Source of the DNA: Bacillota bacterium | GTDB lineage: Bacteria > Bacillota > Sulfobacillia > Sulfobacillales > Sulfobacillaceae | DNA length: 58,150 nt | Direction of reading: 5' to 3' | Assembly (NCBI GenBank): GCA_021795465.1 | Contig: JAJYPK010000005.1 | Span: 1 to 58,150 of the forward strand | Shown here: in pieces, positions 43,538 through 53,617 of the stretch | Layout of the letters: the number at the start of each line of letters is the position of its first letter | Numbering within the stretch: the first letter of the stretch is position 1 | Position numbers and translations under genes: made by a program | Notes under the pieces: model-generated | Told to the model about the DNA's origin: nothing | What the model saw: only the letters and a program-made list of their open reading frames with translations | The model's database searches: none

Positions 43538-44002
43538 TCACTCTTTCCGCGAGAATTGAATAAGGCGTTCGAGTTCCTGGCGAAATCCCTCGATATCTGT
43601 GAATTGTCGGTACACCGAAGCAAAGCGTACATATGCCACCTCGTCCATCTGCCTTAATCGATCCATGACTAGCTCCCCAATTTGACGGGTGGAAACTTCG
43701 CTGGGATGCCCATCTCTTAGAGCACGTTCGATGTCATCCACCATACGTTCCACTTCATCGAGCGCAATCGGTCGTTTTTCACAGGCAGTAAGAATGCCGC
43801 GAAGAATTTTACCACGGTCAAAAGCTTCCCGCTGGCTATCCTTTTTAACAATCCACAACGGCACGTCTTCAACGCGTTCATACGACGTAAACCGTTGACG
43901 ACACGCCAAGCACTCCCGACGACGACGAATCTCCTGCCCATCGTGGGCGGGTCGCGAGTCCAAGACTTTACTGTCCGGGTATTGGCAAATAGGACATCTC
44001 AT
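43538..44002 (-). CDS. nrdR: Transcriptional repressor NrdR
   Basis: 154 residues. A zinc ribbon (Cys 3, 6, 31 and 34; [18 protein letters not shown]) is followed by an ATP-cone domain ([20 protein letters not shown] on). NrdR senses (d)ATP and represses ribonucleotide reductase genes. It is upstream of nrdJ with 44 bases between, so they form one operon, which would make the repression self-regulating. No strong Shine-Dalgarno sequence was identified. Confidence 0.95.
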
Positions 44003-48504: not shown

Positions 48505-49179
48505 ATGCCTATTCCCACCCATGTCGTGCCAAATGCCCCAAGCCCCAACGCCAAGTCCCGGGCAGCCGAAACAATTTTCCAGTGGATTATTGAAGGGGTC
48601 CTTGTGGATGGGGAGAAAATCCGGGATCAAGACATTGCACAATCATTGGGAGTCAGTAGGATGCCCGTTAGGGAGGCTTTCCAAATCCTTGAGGCCATCG
48701 GCTTCATCGAAACCACACCTAACCGAGCCACTCGTGTGAGTCCCCTACAGCAAAAAGATATTGTCCCTTTATATAAGACCATCGCACGTCTCGAAGCTTT
48801 GGGCCTTGAAACAACAATGGACCCTGTTCGACCAGAGACCATTGAAGAACTCTATACACTGAACCATCGATTTCAACAAGCGTTGGACCAAAAAGATGTC
48901 CGAGCCATTCTTGAACGCGATCAAGCCTTTCATAACCGTTTGGTGGCTGGTGATGGCAACCGCTTTTGCCAACAAGCGTTATCCCCACTTAAAATGACCG
49001 CTGCTCGCTACGAACATCGTTATTTTTCCGAGCTGCAACCACTTGGCACAAATTCTTCTACCGAACATCGTATGATTTTGGAGGCACTCGTGCAACACAA
49101 CATTCCGCGTGCCCAAGAAATCCTTACCCAAAATTGGCTGCGTACCGCCGACGCCCTCCAAGCCAGGTATGCGAACTAG
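48505..49179 (+). CDS. GntR-family regulator with FCD domain
   Basis: 224 residues. The N-terminal winged helix contains IFQWIIEGVLVDGEKI and SLGVSRMPVREAFQIL, as in the FadR/GntR group. The rest is an all-helical FCD ligand domain with RDQAFHNRLV (the metal- or ligand-binding Asp/His). It likely represses the divergent EamA gene and itself through the palindrome at 48445-48470. ATG 48505 follows AGGAGGG. Confidence 0.9.
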   Translation: MPIPTHVVPNAPSPNAKSRAAETIFQWIIEGVLVDGEKIRDQDIAQSLGVSRMPVREAFQILEAIGFIETTPNRATRVSPLQQKDIVPLYKTIARLEALGLETTMDPVRPETIEELYTLNHRFQQALDQKDVRAILERDQAFHNRLVAGDGNRFCQQALSPLKMTAARYEHRYFSELQPLGTNSSTEHRMILEALVQHNIPRAQEILTQNWLRTADALQARYAN

Positions 49180-49358
49180 CGATTTAGAATACGGTACCCC
49201 CAAACTCCACTACCCACCAGGAGCAAAAGGCCCAGAGGAATGTTACCAAATCCCACAACCCCGCCTACCGTAAGCAGCGCCCCGAGAATTCCACCCCATT
49301 TAACCCAGCGCAACATAGGTCGTTGGCGCTCTAGAGTCTCCCATTTTTTCGGCAACAT
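49176..49358 (-). CDS. Small membrane protein next to the PMT-PQQ gene
   Basis: 60 residues from ATG 49358 behind a GGGGGGG run; a longer frame to 49409 overlaps the upstream gene. A basic start (LPKKWETLERQRP) leads to two membrane segments (about 19-36 and 40-56). It begins 18 bases after the stop of the PMT-PQQ gene, so it is likely in the same operon and may be a membrane partner. No family recognised. Confidence 0.55.
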   Translation of the reverse strand: MLPKKWETLERQRPMLRWVKWGGILGALLTVGGVVGFGNIPLGLLLLVGSGVWGYRILNR

Positions 49359-49375: not shown

Positions 49376-52021
49376 TTAATGTCCACGCAACGCAAAAATT
49401 CCCAGCCATCCCTTGAGGCTACCCACTACCAAATTGTGTCCGATCACCAACGGCGCAGAAGGTCCAAATGGTCCTAATCTCGTAGAAACGGTAGCCAAGT
49501 GTTGTCCATTGGCACGTGACAGTTCAATCAAGGAACCATTACTCCCGGCCACCCATAGTGCCTGGCCCAGGTCGATCGGACTTGCCGTGACACCGGTTCC
49601 TACGCGGCTTCGCCATAGGATTCGTCCGCTCACGACATTGACGGCCACCACAGCATGAGCCGCAGGACTTCCAATATAGACAACGCCGGAAGCCACCATC
49701 GGTATCCCCTCTTCTTCCACGTCTATGGGCATCATGCCACTTCCTAGCCCAACATGCCACTGTACCCGACCCGACTTGACGTCTAATGCAAAAAGCTCGT
49801 TGCTGATGCGCGTCTGGTGTGACTTGGTGGTGGTCACGGCAGGCGCACCCGCGATGAAAATCGATGTACCGTTTGTCGCCGCACTGCAATCGGATAATCC
49901 GCTTTTCACCGGTAGGTTTCTAGACCATGACACCTGATGGGTCCGTAGGTTCACCGCCCACACCGTAGAGCTAGAAGCCGGATACGCACTGTGATAGACG
50001 TTGGTGGCCACGACGAGCTCATGACCCACCACGACCGGGCTCGACATACTATCAAAGCCTGATAAGGTCCTCTGCCATAACAAATGTCCCGTCCTCAGAT
50101 TCAACGCATCCAAGTGTCCGCCACCAGTGACCTCATACAACACATTATGCCAAATAACGGGCGTCGCCATATCTTCCCCGTTAGTTCTGTGAAACCATAG
50201 TTCCTTACCCGTAATTCGATTGATGCTCATGATCCCGTTGGTCCCGACGCCCCGAATCCACCCATGCACGGCATTGTACGACCGAAAGGCATTATTACCG
50301 AGCCCAATAAAAATCTGAGAGCCACTTTCAAGGGGCGTAGTCATGACCATGTTGGGCACAGTGTCCTGCCACAGCATACGGCGACTTTTCAGACTCCATG
50401 CCACTACCCGATTACCATTGGTGCCAAAATAGATGTGGTGTCCCACGACGCTTGGTTGATCCACGATTGCCCCGTGAAAATGCTGTGCGTAGGCGGACAT
50501 CATCCCCGTGATACTCGGCAACACCACATTGTGTGACCCGGTTAGTCCCAACTCGGTCCAATCGATCAATTGCACCGGCGGGCGCGAGACCGTGGCCTGA
50601 ATGGGGGCCAGTGGAATGGTCGTTGGTCCGCTATACCGGGGCACAGCGAGATTCGTCGGTTTAGGACGAGCATCCCAACTCGGGGGCCATGCCAGATTCC
50701 GATAAAAGCCTACTGGGGTTGGAAACCCCACCCACAGTGGAACCAAATAAACGGTCGTTAAGGCAACCACGAACGCCCCGCCCCAGGCCACGATTCGCGC
50801 CCCACGACGACGATGCTCCCACAAATGTACCCATAGCGCACTGGCCGCAATAATAAAAGCCGGCATCGCAGACAACAGATAATAAGTGAATTTGGAGCGC
50901 GGGGTCAAAAGCCAAGTAGCGTAAAAAGCCACCCACCATACATCTAAAAATATCCATGCCCAGCGATTTTGGTTCCGAACCCAACCCAATCGCCAGGTCC
51001 CAACCACTAAAGCGATGAATCCGAGCCAAATCACGACCGGATTCGAAAATGCCATCACACGTATCATGTGACCGGCTTGTTTGATGATCAAGAATGCCGT
51101 GGGGCGCGGCAACAGCATCCACGACCAGGCATTGGACGACCACGGATGATAAAACGTCAGTTTCCACATGGCCTTAAACATCAAGTATTGCAGTTTCCCA
51201 AAAGCAAAGAATACATTATGGGGCAGCCAGGTTTGGTGGAATCCACTGGAAAACGCATAGAAATAGGTTAAGAAGTACGAACCTAGCGGGATCCAGGTGA
51301 CAGTTAGAAGATAATAGAACCATCGTCGGTGCATGCGCAAAAAGAGTCGATAGTTTAGTCCTAAGAATATCCAACTCGCCAAGATAGTTTGGGCACCGAT
51401 CCATTTAGTGGCTAAGCCGAGGCCCAAGCTCACTCCCCAGAGAGCCCACCAAAAATAGGAAGTCGATCGTCCTTGACGTAATCGCGCCACTAGGACCCAA
51501 AGACCCAAAAGATTTATCATCACAAAGGGAAATGCGGTAGAATCGGGTAACGCCACCCGGCTGATACTTATCATGAGGCCGTCAAAGGCGGACAGAAGAG
51601 CTGCAACTTCAGCTGCCAGGCGCGAATGGAACATATGCTGGACTAAGAAATAGATAACAATGGGTACTACGAGTGCGAACACTTCACCCGGCAGTCGCCA
51701 AACCCATGGATGATTACCAAACCATAAGATTGATAGGGCAATGAGTTCCTTGGCGAGTGGAGGGTGTGAAAGAAGATTGGGGTCGATGCCGGGAACCATA
51801 TGGGCGATATGGACGGGGCTCCGACGACCGAGCAGGACATCGGCCGCCGGGACATAGTAATATTCGTCATAGATCAAATGCGGGTACCGTGCATACCCAA
51901 TCCACCTCAGACACCAAGCTAACACTTCGATAGTGCCGAGTACAATCCAAGTTCGCCAAGGTTCAACAGGACGACGCAGATCGCGTTTTATTGTGTTCGG
52001 CTTTGATGTTTGTAACGCCAT
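49376..52021 (-). CDS. PMT-type membrane mannosyltransferase fused to a PQQ-repeat beta-propeller
   Basis: 881 residues from ATG 52021 (GGAGG six bases upstream). The first 480 residues are a GT-C membrane glycosyltransferase of the PMT family: an early acidic loop (IYDEYYYVPAADVLLG), HPPLAKELIALS, and about ten to twelve membrane helices. The last 350 residues are outside the membrane and consist of repeats of the form G.ELWF, VLYEVTGGGHLDALNLRTG, LWQR, VWAVNLRTH, LFALDVKSG, VAVNVVSGRILWRS. These are six to eight blades of a PQQ/quinoprotein beta-propeller. Such a propeller behind a PMT domain is unusual. The PQQ part may bind substrate or the cell wall rather than a cofactor. Not an assembly artefact as far as frame is concerned: it is one open frame. 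Confidence 0.85.
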   Translation of the reverse strand: MALQTSKPNTIKRDLRRPVEPWRTWIVLGTIEVLAWCLRWIGYARYPHLIYDEYYYVPAADVLLGRRSPVHIAHMVPGIDPNLLSHPPLAKELIALSILWFGNHPWVWRLPGEVFALVVPIVIYFLVQHMFHSRLAAEVAALLSAFDGLMISISRVALPDSTAFPFVMINLLGLWVLVARLRQGRSTSYFWWALWGVSLGLGLATKWIGAQTILASWIFLGLNYRLFLRMHRRWFYYLLTVTWIPLGSYFLTYFYAFSSGFHQTWLPHNVFFAFGKLQYLMFKAMWKLTFYHPWSSNAWSWMLLPRPTAFLIIKQAGHMIRVMAFSNPVVIWLGFIALVVGTWRLGWVRNQNRWAWIFLDVWWVAFYATWLLTPRSKFTYYLLSAMPAFIIAASALWVHLWEHRRRGARIVAWGGAFVVALTTVYLVPLWVGFPTPVGFYRNLAWPPSWDARPKPTNLAVPRYSGPTTIPLAPIQATVSRPPVQLIDWTELGLTGSHNVVLPSITGMMSAYAQHFHGAIVDQPSVVGHHIYFGTNGNRVVAWSLKSRRMLWQDTVPNMVMTTPLESGSQIFIGLGNNAFRSYNAVHGWIRGVGTNGIMSINRITGKELWFHRTNGEDMATPVIWHNVLYEVTGGGHLDALNLRTGHLLWQRTLSGFDSMSSPVVVGHELVVATNVYHSAYPASSSTVWAVNLRTHQVSWSRNLPVKSGLSDCSAATNGTSIFIAGAPAVTTTKSHQTRISNELFALDVKSGRVQWHVGLGSGMMPIDVEEEGIPMVASGVVYIGSPAAHAVVAVNVVSGRILWRSRVGTGVTASPIDLGQALWVAGSNGSLIELSRANGQHLATVSTRLGPFGPSAPLVIGHNLVVGSLKGWLGIFALRGH

Positions 52022-52045
52022 CCTCGCCCTCCTCAATTGAGATGC

Positions 52046-52543
52046 CTAGCGGTAGTTAGTAAAGGCTAATTCAATCCCGAAATCTTGGCTTTTAAGCCAT
52101 TGAATCACCTTTTGTAGGTCATCCTTGTTTTTCGATGCCACCCGGAGCGCGTCCCCCTGAATCTGCACATCCACCTTTTCTCCAAGTGCCCGAATCGCTT
52201 TTTGAATTTCTTTGGCTTTTGCCGTTTCAATGCCGTTTTTCACCGTGACCGGTCGTGTCGCTCGTTCCATCCCATGGAGCTCCGGCTTGCCAAATTCAAA
52301 AAACCTCAAAGCCACCCCACGTTTGGCCATTTTGTCAGCTAACACGGTGCTTAAAGCATCCATCACCATCCCGCTAGGCGCATCCAAGGTAATTACCCAC
52401 CGAGACGCATCCCAGGTAATCGTCACCTCTTGACCCCTAAAATCATAGCGGGTAGCAGCCTCCCGACGGGTTTGGTCCAACGCATTTTGCAATTCTGACA
52501 CGTCAGGACTCGAGACGATGTCAAATGAGCTTTCTTTAGCCAT
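52046..52543 (-). CDS. yajQ: YajQ-family nucleotide-binding protein
   Basis: 165 residues of the UPF0234/YajQ family: FDIVSSPDVSELQNALDQT at the start, RYDFRG, GMVMDALSTVLADKMAKRG, and the end ASKNKDDLQKVIQWLKSQDFG. These proteins bind nucleotides; c-di-GMP binding was reported for some members. ATG 52543 follows GGGAGGG. It is in a string with the genes downstream and upstream on the same strand. Confidence 0.93.
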   Translation of the reverse strand: MAKESSFDIVSSPDVSELQNALDQTRREAATRYDFRGQEVTITWDASRWVITLDAPSGMVMDALSTVLADKMAKRGVALRFFEFGKPELHGMERATRPVTVKNGIETAKAKEIQKAIRALGEKVDVQIQGDALRVASKNKDDLQKVIQWLKSQDFGIELAFTNYR

Positions 52544-52545
52544 CT

Positions 52546-53193
52546 CTAGGCCCTCCCTGAGAATTGGTTGGATCGCACCGCACCAAAACGTGTAATCACG
52601 TCATGAATCGCCGCTTCAATAGAGGACGCTTCGGTGCCAACCTGGTGTCCCCATTCTAAACGCGCCCAGAGCCAACGATATTCGGGCAGGGACCCTAAGT
52701 GCTCAATGACCGACGCTAATGTCGATTCCTCCGCTATGGCGCCTGCGGCCGACGCATCGTACACCGGGCGGACCAGAGCTAGGCGTCCTTGTTGAACCTT
52801 CCAGGTAAACTCATGGCGGTAGTCGCTCGTATCGGGTACGAAACCCGGCTCCATCCCGTTAGCCAGTTTGAGATGAACCTCAGCATCGGGCCAGTCTTCG
52901 ATGCGATCGATCAATTCCGGCATTGTGGTCATCCAAAGCCAGGTGTCGTTCATCACCAACTTGGTGGCCGGACTGTATCCTAATGCACTCCGGTCGAGAC
53001 CCTTATTAATTTGAGCGCCAAGATAGACACCGCTTTTGAGTGTGCGCACAACCCAGCGTAAACCCTTCTGCCCATCACGTTGCGATTGCAAACACCAGGA
53101 GTCCGCCACATGTACCACCTCGTCCACGTATCCCGCGTCTTGAAGCGCCTGGAGAAATTGCTCAACCACTTTCTGCCCTTGGGTTTTAGCCAT
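52546..53193 (-). CDS. Uncharacterised 215-residue protein
   Basis: ATG 53193 overlaps the end of the CoA-binding gene and is preferred over the frame start at 53241. The product is soluble, with a mixed alpha/beta pattern (TKLVMNDTWLWMTTMPELID, EVHLKLANGMEPGFVPDTSD, PEYRWLWARLEWGHQVG), no membrane segment and no motif I know. Position between the CoA-binding and yajQ genes suggests an operon. Confidence 0.65.
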   Translation of the reverse strand: MAKTQGQKVVEQFLQALQDAGYVDEVVHVADSWCLQSQRDGQKGLRWVVRTLKSGVYLGAQINKGLDRSALGYSPATKLVMNDTWLWMTTMPELIDRIEDWPDAEVHLKLANGMEPGFVPDTSDYRHEFTWKVQQGRLALVRPVYDASAAGAIAEESTLASVIEHLGSLPEYRWLWARLEWGHQVGTEASSIEAAIHDVITRFGAVRSNQFSGRA

Positions 53194-53617
53194 GACCCTG
53201 GCCGCCTTCGCTCGGTGACGTCCAAAGACGCTGATGTTCAATTTTAATGCAGCGATTTTGAACCACGTTTAAGCCCCCAGCGGCCGCTATTGAGGCCGTC
53301 ACTTCATTTTCGATACCGAGTTGAAGCCATAGTGTCCCGGCTCCAATCCGGACCGCTGATTCTGCTACCGCAGGCGTGTCCTCCGCTTTTCGAAAGACAT
53401 CCACAATGTCAACGTGGTCCGGCACATCCTCCAGACGTGGATAGGCCTTCTCACCTAAGATTTCGTCGACCCCCGGTCGCACCGGGATCACGTGAAACCC
53501 ATGTTCCTGAAGGTAGTGCGCCACTCGATGGCTATCACGATCCGGATTCGGTGATAAGCCCACCACGGCGACCGTTTGTTGCGATTTGGTTAGTTTTTTG
53601 AGTTCAGCATCATCCAT
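53186..53617 (-). CDS. CoA-binding protein (YccU-like, Rossmann fold)
   Basis: 143 residues with the CoA-binding Rossmann pattern TVAVVGLSPNPDRDSHRVAHYL, then GFHVIPVRPGVDEILGEKAY and the WLQLGIENE and VQNRCIKIEH segment (conserved Cys and His). The family (YccU) binds CoA or related nucleotides; function is unsettled. ATG 53617 follows GAAGGGATGG. Upstream of the hypothetical gene, overlapping it by eight bases. Confidence 0.88.
   Translation of the reverse strand: MDDAELKKLTKSQQTVAVVGLSPNPDRDSHRVAHYLQEHGFHVIPVRPGVDEILGEKAYPRLEDVPDHVDIVDVFRKAEDTPAVAESAVRIGAGTLWLQLGIENEVTASIAAAGGLNVVQNRCIKIEHQRLWTSPSEGGQGHG

Follow-up and report, generated by a model that had tools for sequence, protein, structure and literature searches.

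A gene that joins a membrane glycosyltransferase to a beta-propeller was identified in a 58,150-nucleotide stretch of DNA (the window; contig JAJYPK010000005.1) from a member of the Sulfobacillaceae (Bacillota). The gene (49376..52021, minus strand, 881 codons and stop, ATG start) is confirmed as genuine. We regard it as probable, with room for doubt, that its product is a protein O-mannosyltransferase (PMT) with a C-terminal extracytoplasmic propeller of the tetrathionate hydrolase (TTH) superfamily, which would handle the acceptor or the product of the reaction in a MIR-like manner; this reading is a composite one.

The fusion gene and its mannosyltransferase half

The frame runs from the ATG at 52019-52021 to the stop codon at 49376-49378, and an in-frame TTG is present upstream at 52036. 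All other features named below lie on the same strand. A first-pass annotation, made from the letters of the window, had described a single open frame of 881 codons, strand not given, in which a PMT/GT39-like enzyme is joined to an extracytoplasmic propeller. The frame is intact, and the in-frame union was recovered by Pfam search and by the fold match of the PMT half; the position of the propeller outside the cell is a reading of topology. In the N-terminal half PMT (PF02366, E 1.8e-11, 44.5 bits with a curated cut-off of 22.7), PMT_2 (PF13231, 39.9 bits, cut-off 26.1) and PMT_4TMC (PF16192, 35.1 bits, cut-off 32.4) were matched. In the C-terminal half PQQ_2 (E 3.6e-23, in three stretches) and PQQ were found, each above the curated cut-off, and a match of Beta-prop_ACSF4 to the protein fell under it. 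A frame artefact, considered at first pass, is ruled out: no frame break was found, and 24 other genomes carry an uninterrupted full-length copy with 36-83% identity. Together with the copy of the window these are the 25 full-length fusions to which all conservation counts below refer.

The PMT half (residues 20-448; 50678..51964) was predicted and structure-searched alone, and the VIA comparison of the full-length model covered the propeller only. The model of the half reached a pLDDT of 84.0 and a pTM of 0.88. Solved PMTs occupied ranks 1-7 in Foldseek. In VIA the five PMT entries listed were in the lead, with Z 32.8-34.9 over 415-418 residues, followed by AglB as next family (Z 26.5) and ArnT (25.8). 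A profile search detected Pmt4 (3.1e-9) and Pmt1 (2.5e-6), with the DE motif aligned to both; no PMT was found in a single-sequence search. The NCBIfam equivalog NF058602 gave 45.9 of 800 bits for the fusion, far under its cut-off. From the helices of the model, hydropathy and charge we read eleven transmembrane helices, with the propeller outside. Since the PMT half brings these helices itself, anchoring of the enzyme by the propeller, as proposed at first pass, is not needed.

The residues expected in a PMT active site are present. The catalytic DE motif, D52-E53 (51863..51868), is located in the first extracytoplasmic loop, is aligned with the DE of Pmt1 and Pmt4 and is invariant in 25/25 fusions and in 27/27 rows of an alignment that also includes two propeller-less PMTs. 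In the same loop the motif HPPLAK (residues 86-91; 51749..51766) was found, of which P87, P88 and K91 are invariant; its letters are also visible in the sequence of Pmt1, though not aligned there. R155-x4-D160 (51542..51559) represents the region of the second catalytic Asp, corresponding by alignment and motif to D189 of ScPMT1 and D176 of MtPMT, and R375-x2-F378 (50888..50899) matches the Rx2Y/F pair known from PMTs. For MtPMT the residues D74, D176, R441 and Y444 are named for the active site in PMC12331936. D52, D160, R375 and F378, their counterparts by alignment and motif, are unchanged in all 25 fusions and also in the 27 aligned rows that include two propeller-less PMTs. Judged by fold and active-site positions, the half is predicted to be a true GT39/PMT-type protein O-mannosyltransferase. 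With the known GT39 PMTs, namely S. cerevisiae Pmt1-Pmt2 (6p25), C. thermophilum Pmt4 (9i5k/9i5l) and the actinobacterial MtPMT, it shares the GT-C fold, eleven transmembrane helices, the DE motif, the second Asp and the Rx2F/Y pair. In contrast to GT39 PMTs in which a MIR beta-trefoil is inserted between helix 7 and helix 8, the fusion has a C-terminal propeller of another superfamily.

Kinship and possible activities of the propeller

The propeller (residues 457-881; 49379..50653) belongs to the tetrathionate hydrolase superfamily. Its closest sequence match in the PDB was TTH (E 3.6e-32), and in Foldseek TTH held ranks 1-12, with BamB after it by E-value. VIA gave Z 47.9 for TTH over 383 residues at 2.4 A, next a designed propeller (Z 39.0), and 35.1 for BamB. 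The label "PQQ-type" of the first-pass annotation holds as a broad family name, but the nearest solved relative is TTH and the adjacent Cys pair is absent: each of the 25 propellers has at most one Cys. Counting of the blades had been suggested there; eight blades were counted in the strand list of the model, and no sign of PQQ binding was seen. The model TIGR03075 for PQQ-dependent dehydrogenases scored 32.1 of 480 bits, and two BamB equivalogs remained under cut-off with 75.9 of 423 and 73.1 of 285 bits. Most likely the propeller is not a PQQ enzyme.

Invariant positions are enriched in residues 587-596, 613-621, 655-660, 674-685 and 707-711. The first of these regions, GW(I/V)RG.GTNG (587-596; 50234..50263), is part of a conserved patch. 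In GE.M.TP (615-621; 50159..50179), aligned with GETMATP of the A. ferrooxidans enzyme (AfTTH), E616, M618 and P621 are invariant. GFDS.SS (655-661; 50039..50059) follows, with Met at residue 659 in 18/25 fusions. The stretch N674.Y676....P681A682..S685 (49967..50002) is invariant in 25/25 and characteristic of the fusion clade; N674 and Y676 stand opposite a gap in AfTTH and in every listed paralogue except S_L068 (S_L103 is misaligned). SGLSD (707-711; 49889..49903) ends with D711, which is aligned with the essential Asp325 of AfTTH. Finally, E770 (49712..49714) is invariant in the fusions, and Lys stands here in AfTTH and in six of nine paralogues grouped with it. From the alignment we infer that the conserved stretches form one pocket, and their richness in invariant positions may be a sign of a bound ligand or of a reaction.

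Three alternatives in which the propeller is itself an enzyme were weighed. In the first, which is unlikely, the protein is a bifunctional surface enzyme: an exported protein would be mannosylated by the PMT half, and for a second reaction, on the product or on a sulfur compound, the propeller would use D711 as general acid in the acidic exterior. Protein O-mannosylation would then be coupled to a TTH-type catalytic pocket.

The second, quite unlikely, takes the propeller as an active hydrolase of polythionate or a related sulfur compound that is tethered by the PMT half, the protein being bifunctional or mainly a sulfur enzyme. TTH is the nearest solved relative across the whole propeller, and the propeller faces outside by the topology reading. 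According to PMC10859504, TTH has eight blades, the A. ferrooxidans enzyme is active without PQQ, and the exchange D325N, the variant of structure 7cqy, abolishes activity. The equivalent D711 is kept in 25/25 fusions, and of the Met residues aligned with AfTTH 618 is retained in 25/25, 560 in 21/25 and 659 in the proportion given above. However, most other members of the superfamily retain this Asp as well (35 Asp, 3 Glu and 1 Thr in 39 standalone paralogues). Thus, it marks the superfamily and does not identify a TTH.

Other positions weaken the case for this activity. For the Metallosphaera TTH, a study (PMC11818568) counts Arg460 and Arg497, on the basis of molecular dynamics, among the residues that chiefly contact the substrate, and it points out three Met close to the pocket; here the two Arg positions were mapped from motif and spacing rather than from the Metallosphaera protein itself. 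In the propeller tree, which included AfTTH as the only characterised TTH, the group of AfTTH comprised ten rows (support 100/99). The 25 fusion propellers and one free propeller, S_L068 of genome G013, formed a clade of their own (100/100) apart from it. The Arg of the AGAGR motif occurs in seven of the ten members of AfTTH's group (AfTTH, its two nearest paralogues S_L095 and S_L098, and S_L086, S_L087, S_L094 and S_L097) and in 0/25 fusions, which have a deletion there. The second Arg motif, GGRFGI, was found in six of these seven carriers, AfTTH having Gln instead, and the remaining three rows of the group lack both motifs; in the fusions the position is basic in 3/25 (one Arg, two Lys). 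At position 770 Lys is present in the same seven sequences and Glu in 25/25 fusions.

The distribution of sulfur genes points in the same direction. DoxD, a marker of thiosulfate oxidation, was detected in 11/42 genomes of the order and in 10/27 genomes with the fusion (in G006 weakly, 1e-5). It is missing in 17/27 fusion genomes, that of the window included, and 11 of these 17 are at least 90% complete; DoxD is one marker, and several genomes are incomplete. The bin AMDSBA3 carries the fusion (L043) despite the published absence of a TTH homologue, Justice et al. (PMC4378227) reporting for it neither a TTH homologue nor a thiosulfate:quinone oxidoreductase. The conserved neighbours of the fusion do not resemble sulfur genes. 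The propeller is most likely not a tetrathionate hydrolase; a TTH fused to a membrane anchor is weakened by the missing Arg and Lys, the separate clade and the distribution of DoxD.

The comparison with AfTTH (6l8a) shows likeness over the full domain, in the essential Asp and in the GE.M.TP and D.MSS-type loops. AfTTH is described as a free homodimer (PMC10859504); in contrast, the fusion propeller is joined to a membrane glycosyltransferase, shows a distinctive stretch at residues 674-685 and is without the Arg and Lys seen in the closest relatives of AfTTH. With the standalone TTH-like propellers of the order, which occur with or without cytochrome c, it shares the superfamily and usually the Asp, but it forms a separate clade from all of them except S_L068. 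This free propeller of the fusion clade (G013:C28:11765-14179) is found in a genome whose fusion propeller is without two of the three aligned Met. Furthermore, L086, L087, L094 and L097 encode long TTH-like proteins grouped with AfTTH, with open frames of 629-662 amino acids, and their genomes (G008, G028, G025 and G027) all have DoxD. These four are possible true tetrathionate hydrolases.

In the third alternative, similarly improbable, the glycan or glycoprotein that the PMT half produces is the substrate of another acid-dependent reaction of the propeller, such as trimming, hydrolysis or transfer, in which D711 would serve as general acid. The invariant D711, E770, E616 and M618 and the conserved N674.Y676....PA..S stretch are in line with it, as is a mean pairwise identity of the propeller (0.49) that nearly equals that of the PMT half (0.52). 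However, a glycan-active relative was absent among the 50 Foldseek rows listed and in the VIA comparison, and the conserved residues could be structural. A passive, BamB-like docking platform by which the PMT would be recruited to secretion machinery or cell wall is very unlikely: propellers are common scaffolds and BamB comes next after TTH by Foldseek E-value, but the kinship to TTH is far above that to BamB in the Z scores given above, and the invariant residues are concentrated in a few stretches of sequence that precede or include D711.

Proposed role of the propeller

The reading preferred here, a PMT with an accessory propeller, would work as follows. The PMT half would take mannose from polyprenyl-phosphate-mannose, made by the DPM1-like synthase of the genome, and put it on Ser/Thr of exported proteins. 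The eight-bladed propeller, recruited from the TTH superfamily as an accessory domain, would sit near the PMT active site, and its conserved patch would handle the acceptor or the mannosylated product, as the MIR domain is thought to do. According to PMC12705809, a luminal MIR domain is required in eukaryotic PMTs; in the model given there it binds mannosylated product and controls how the active site is reached. Most simply, a soluble domain that is placed like MIR but has another fold would play a similar part. The two have in common an extracytoplasmic beta domain beside the PMT active site, a likeness of functional analogy only, whereas the propeller is of unrelated fold and takes another position in the chain.

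Regarding the donor, the genome encodes a DPM1-like synthase of 250 amino acids, whose sole PDB match at E <=1e-10 was the dolichol-phosphate-mannose synthase 5mlz (1.9e-33); a presumably GtrA-like gene comes after it. Near such synthases further propellers were observed. At L139:6007-7731 (G000:C207) a TTH-like propeller with a C-terminal CxxCH domain is encoded (weak SoxA match, 36.9 of 110 bits), and the gene of a small CxxCH protein (L139:7715-8107) overlaps it. In L139:9564-10828 the DPM1-like synthase, which begins 1.8 kb past the end of the propeller-CxxCH gene, is followed by a gene that we take to be GtrA-like. A CxxCH-bearing propeller lies within about 4 kb of the synthase in eight of the genomes compared (G000, G009, G010, G025, G028, G030, G038 and G039).

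Several observations weigh against the proposed role. The full-length model (pLDDT 80.7, pTM 0.56; linker pLDDT below 50) places the PMT and propeller domains relative to each other without confidence. The fold as a whole is for the most part retained, as are D711 and the Met residues, and a mere docking scaffold would not need the general acid of TTH, yet D711 is invariant. S_L093, S_L096 and S_L101 of AfTTH's own group are also without the Arg and Lys, so that these residues mark a part of the group. The DPM1-like synthase is named by no NCBIfam model above cut-off (best AglJ, 50.6 of 325 bits) and occurs in 38/42 genomes, PMT-less ones included; hence it counts as a candidate donor synthase, and it was rejected as a specific partner of the fusion. 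Two genomes, G009 and G010, keep a PMT without propeller, and 13/42 are without any PF02366 protein. Thus, judging from these genomes, at least some PMTs can do without the propeller.

It was also considered that the propeller might recruit secreted TTH paralogues. This reading is weakened by eight fusion genomes (G006, G007, G015, G029 and G031-G034, several of them incomplete) in which no standalone propeller was found at E <=1e-5.

Distribution, descent and neighbourhood

The fusion was found in 27/42 genomes of the order. It is full length in 25, cut by a contig end in G021, and in G032 (L025 / L055) interrupted in the linker by a single in-frame TAA, where the window protein has residue 448. 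A PF02366 protein is present in 29/42 genomes, once each: 27 fusions, the sole such protein in every carrier, and the two propeller-less ones. In the PMT tree, rooted on two fusions of another family, this PMT-only pair branched inside the family, where its branch was long and the fork was not resolved; that the propeller was lost is a simpler reading than a PMT-only ancestral state.

A scan of genome_contigs, in which 84,980 species are represented by one genome apiece, was made with two search peptides, both of the PMT half, and yielded 24 loci whose titles all read Sulfobacillus or Bacillota bacterium (L056 with the PMT half only, L045 cut); a distant fusion elsewhere could escape such a two-peptide scan. 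Named carriers are S. thermotolerans Kr1 (L037), S. benefaciens AMDSBA1 and AMDSBA4, the AMDSBA3 bin and S. harzensis. In a sample of the phylum 2/398 genomes had the full fusion, and the other 21 matching genomes had one half only. No fusion was detected on viral contigs by a search reaching close relatives only, nor among 20 matched plasmid records, where at most 50% of the query was covered. Within the limits of the scans made, the architecture was found only in one bacterial order. Both families are already known; for their union, which the first-pass annotation had left open to being a well-described family, we found no description in the papers searched, annotation databases being outside that search, and it appears to be new.

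The neighbourhood of the gene was compared with 28 other loci, some of which are present twice. Immediately upstream lies a gene which we take to be of the YajQ family (52046..52543; matched in 17/28 loci); a presumably CoA-binding-protein-like gene (53186..53617) was matched in 26/28 and a gene assumed to be NrdR-like (43538..44002) in 23/28. YajQ is absent at five loci of the Sulfobacillus group that have the other neighbours. Since neighbours are conserved across loci, the comparison suggests vertical inheritance of the fusion at a housekeeping location within the family. The two fusion loci of another family share none of the CoA-binding-like, NrdR, small-protein or YajQ neighbours.

The small membrane protein noted at first pass 18 bases after the fusion is real: a frame of 60 amino acids (49176..49358) without Pfam match begins 17 nt past the stop codon. 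It was matched in 21/28 compared loci and directly follows the fusion in 23/24 same-family fusion loci that have downstream sequence. Its family, with the motif W..LERQRP.L, is present in 30/42 genomes of the order; it was not found in the two PMT-only genomes or in the two other-family fusion genomes. A dedicated two-gene unit was rejected: six fusion-less genomes (G008, G011, G012, G014, G016 and G017) carry the small protein, and in G030 it is encoded on a different contig from the fusion.

As stated in PMC12331936, protein O-mannosylation was long held to be eukaryotic and has since been shown in actinobacteria, and MIR is called eukaryote-specific. An order of the Bacillota with one PMT in each PMT-bearing genome, 27/29 of them with a lineage-specific outer propeller, would add a bacterial O-mannosylation system. 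The fusion would also allow the effect of an accessory domain next to a PMT active site to be studied in a naturally occurring case. Furthermore, the results suggest that some of the "TTH homologues" of these genomes are proteins other than tetrathionate hydrolase, a point of relevance to the annotation of sulfur metabolism in biomining organisms.

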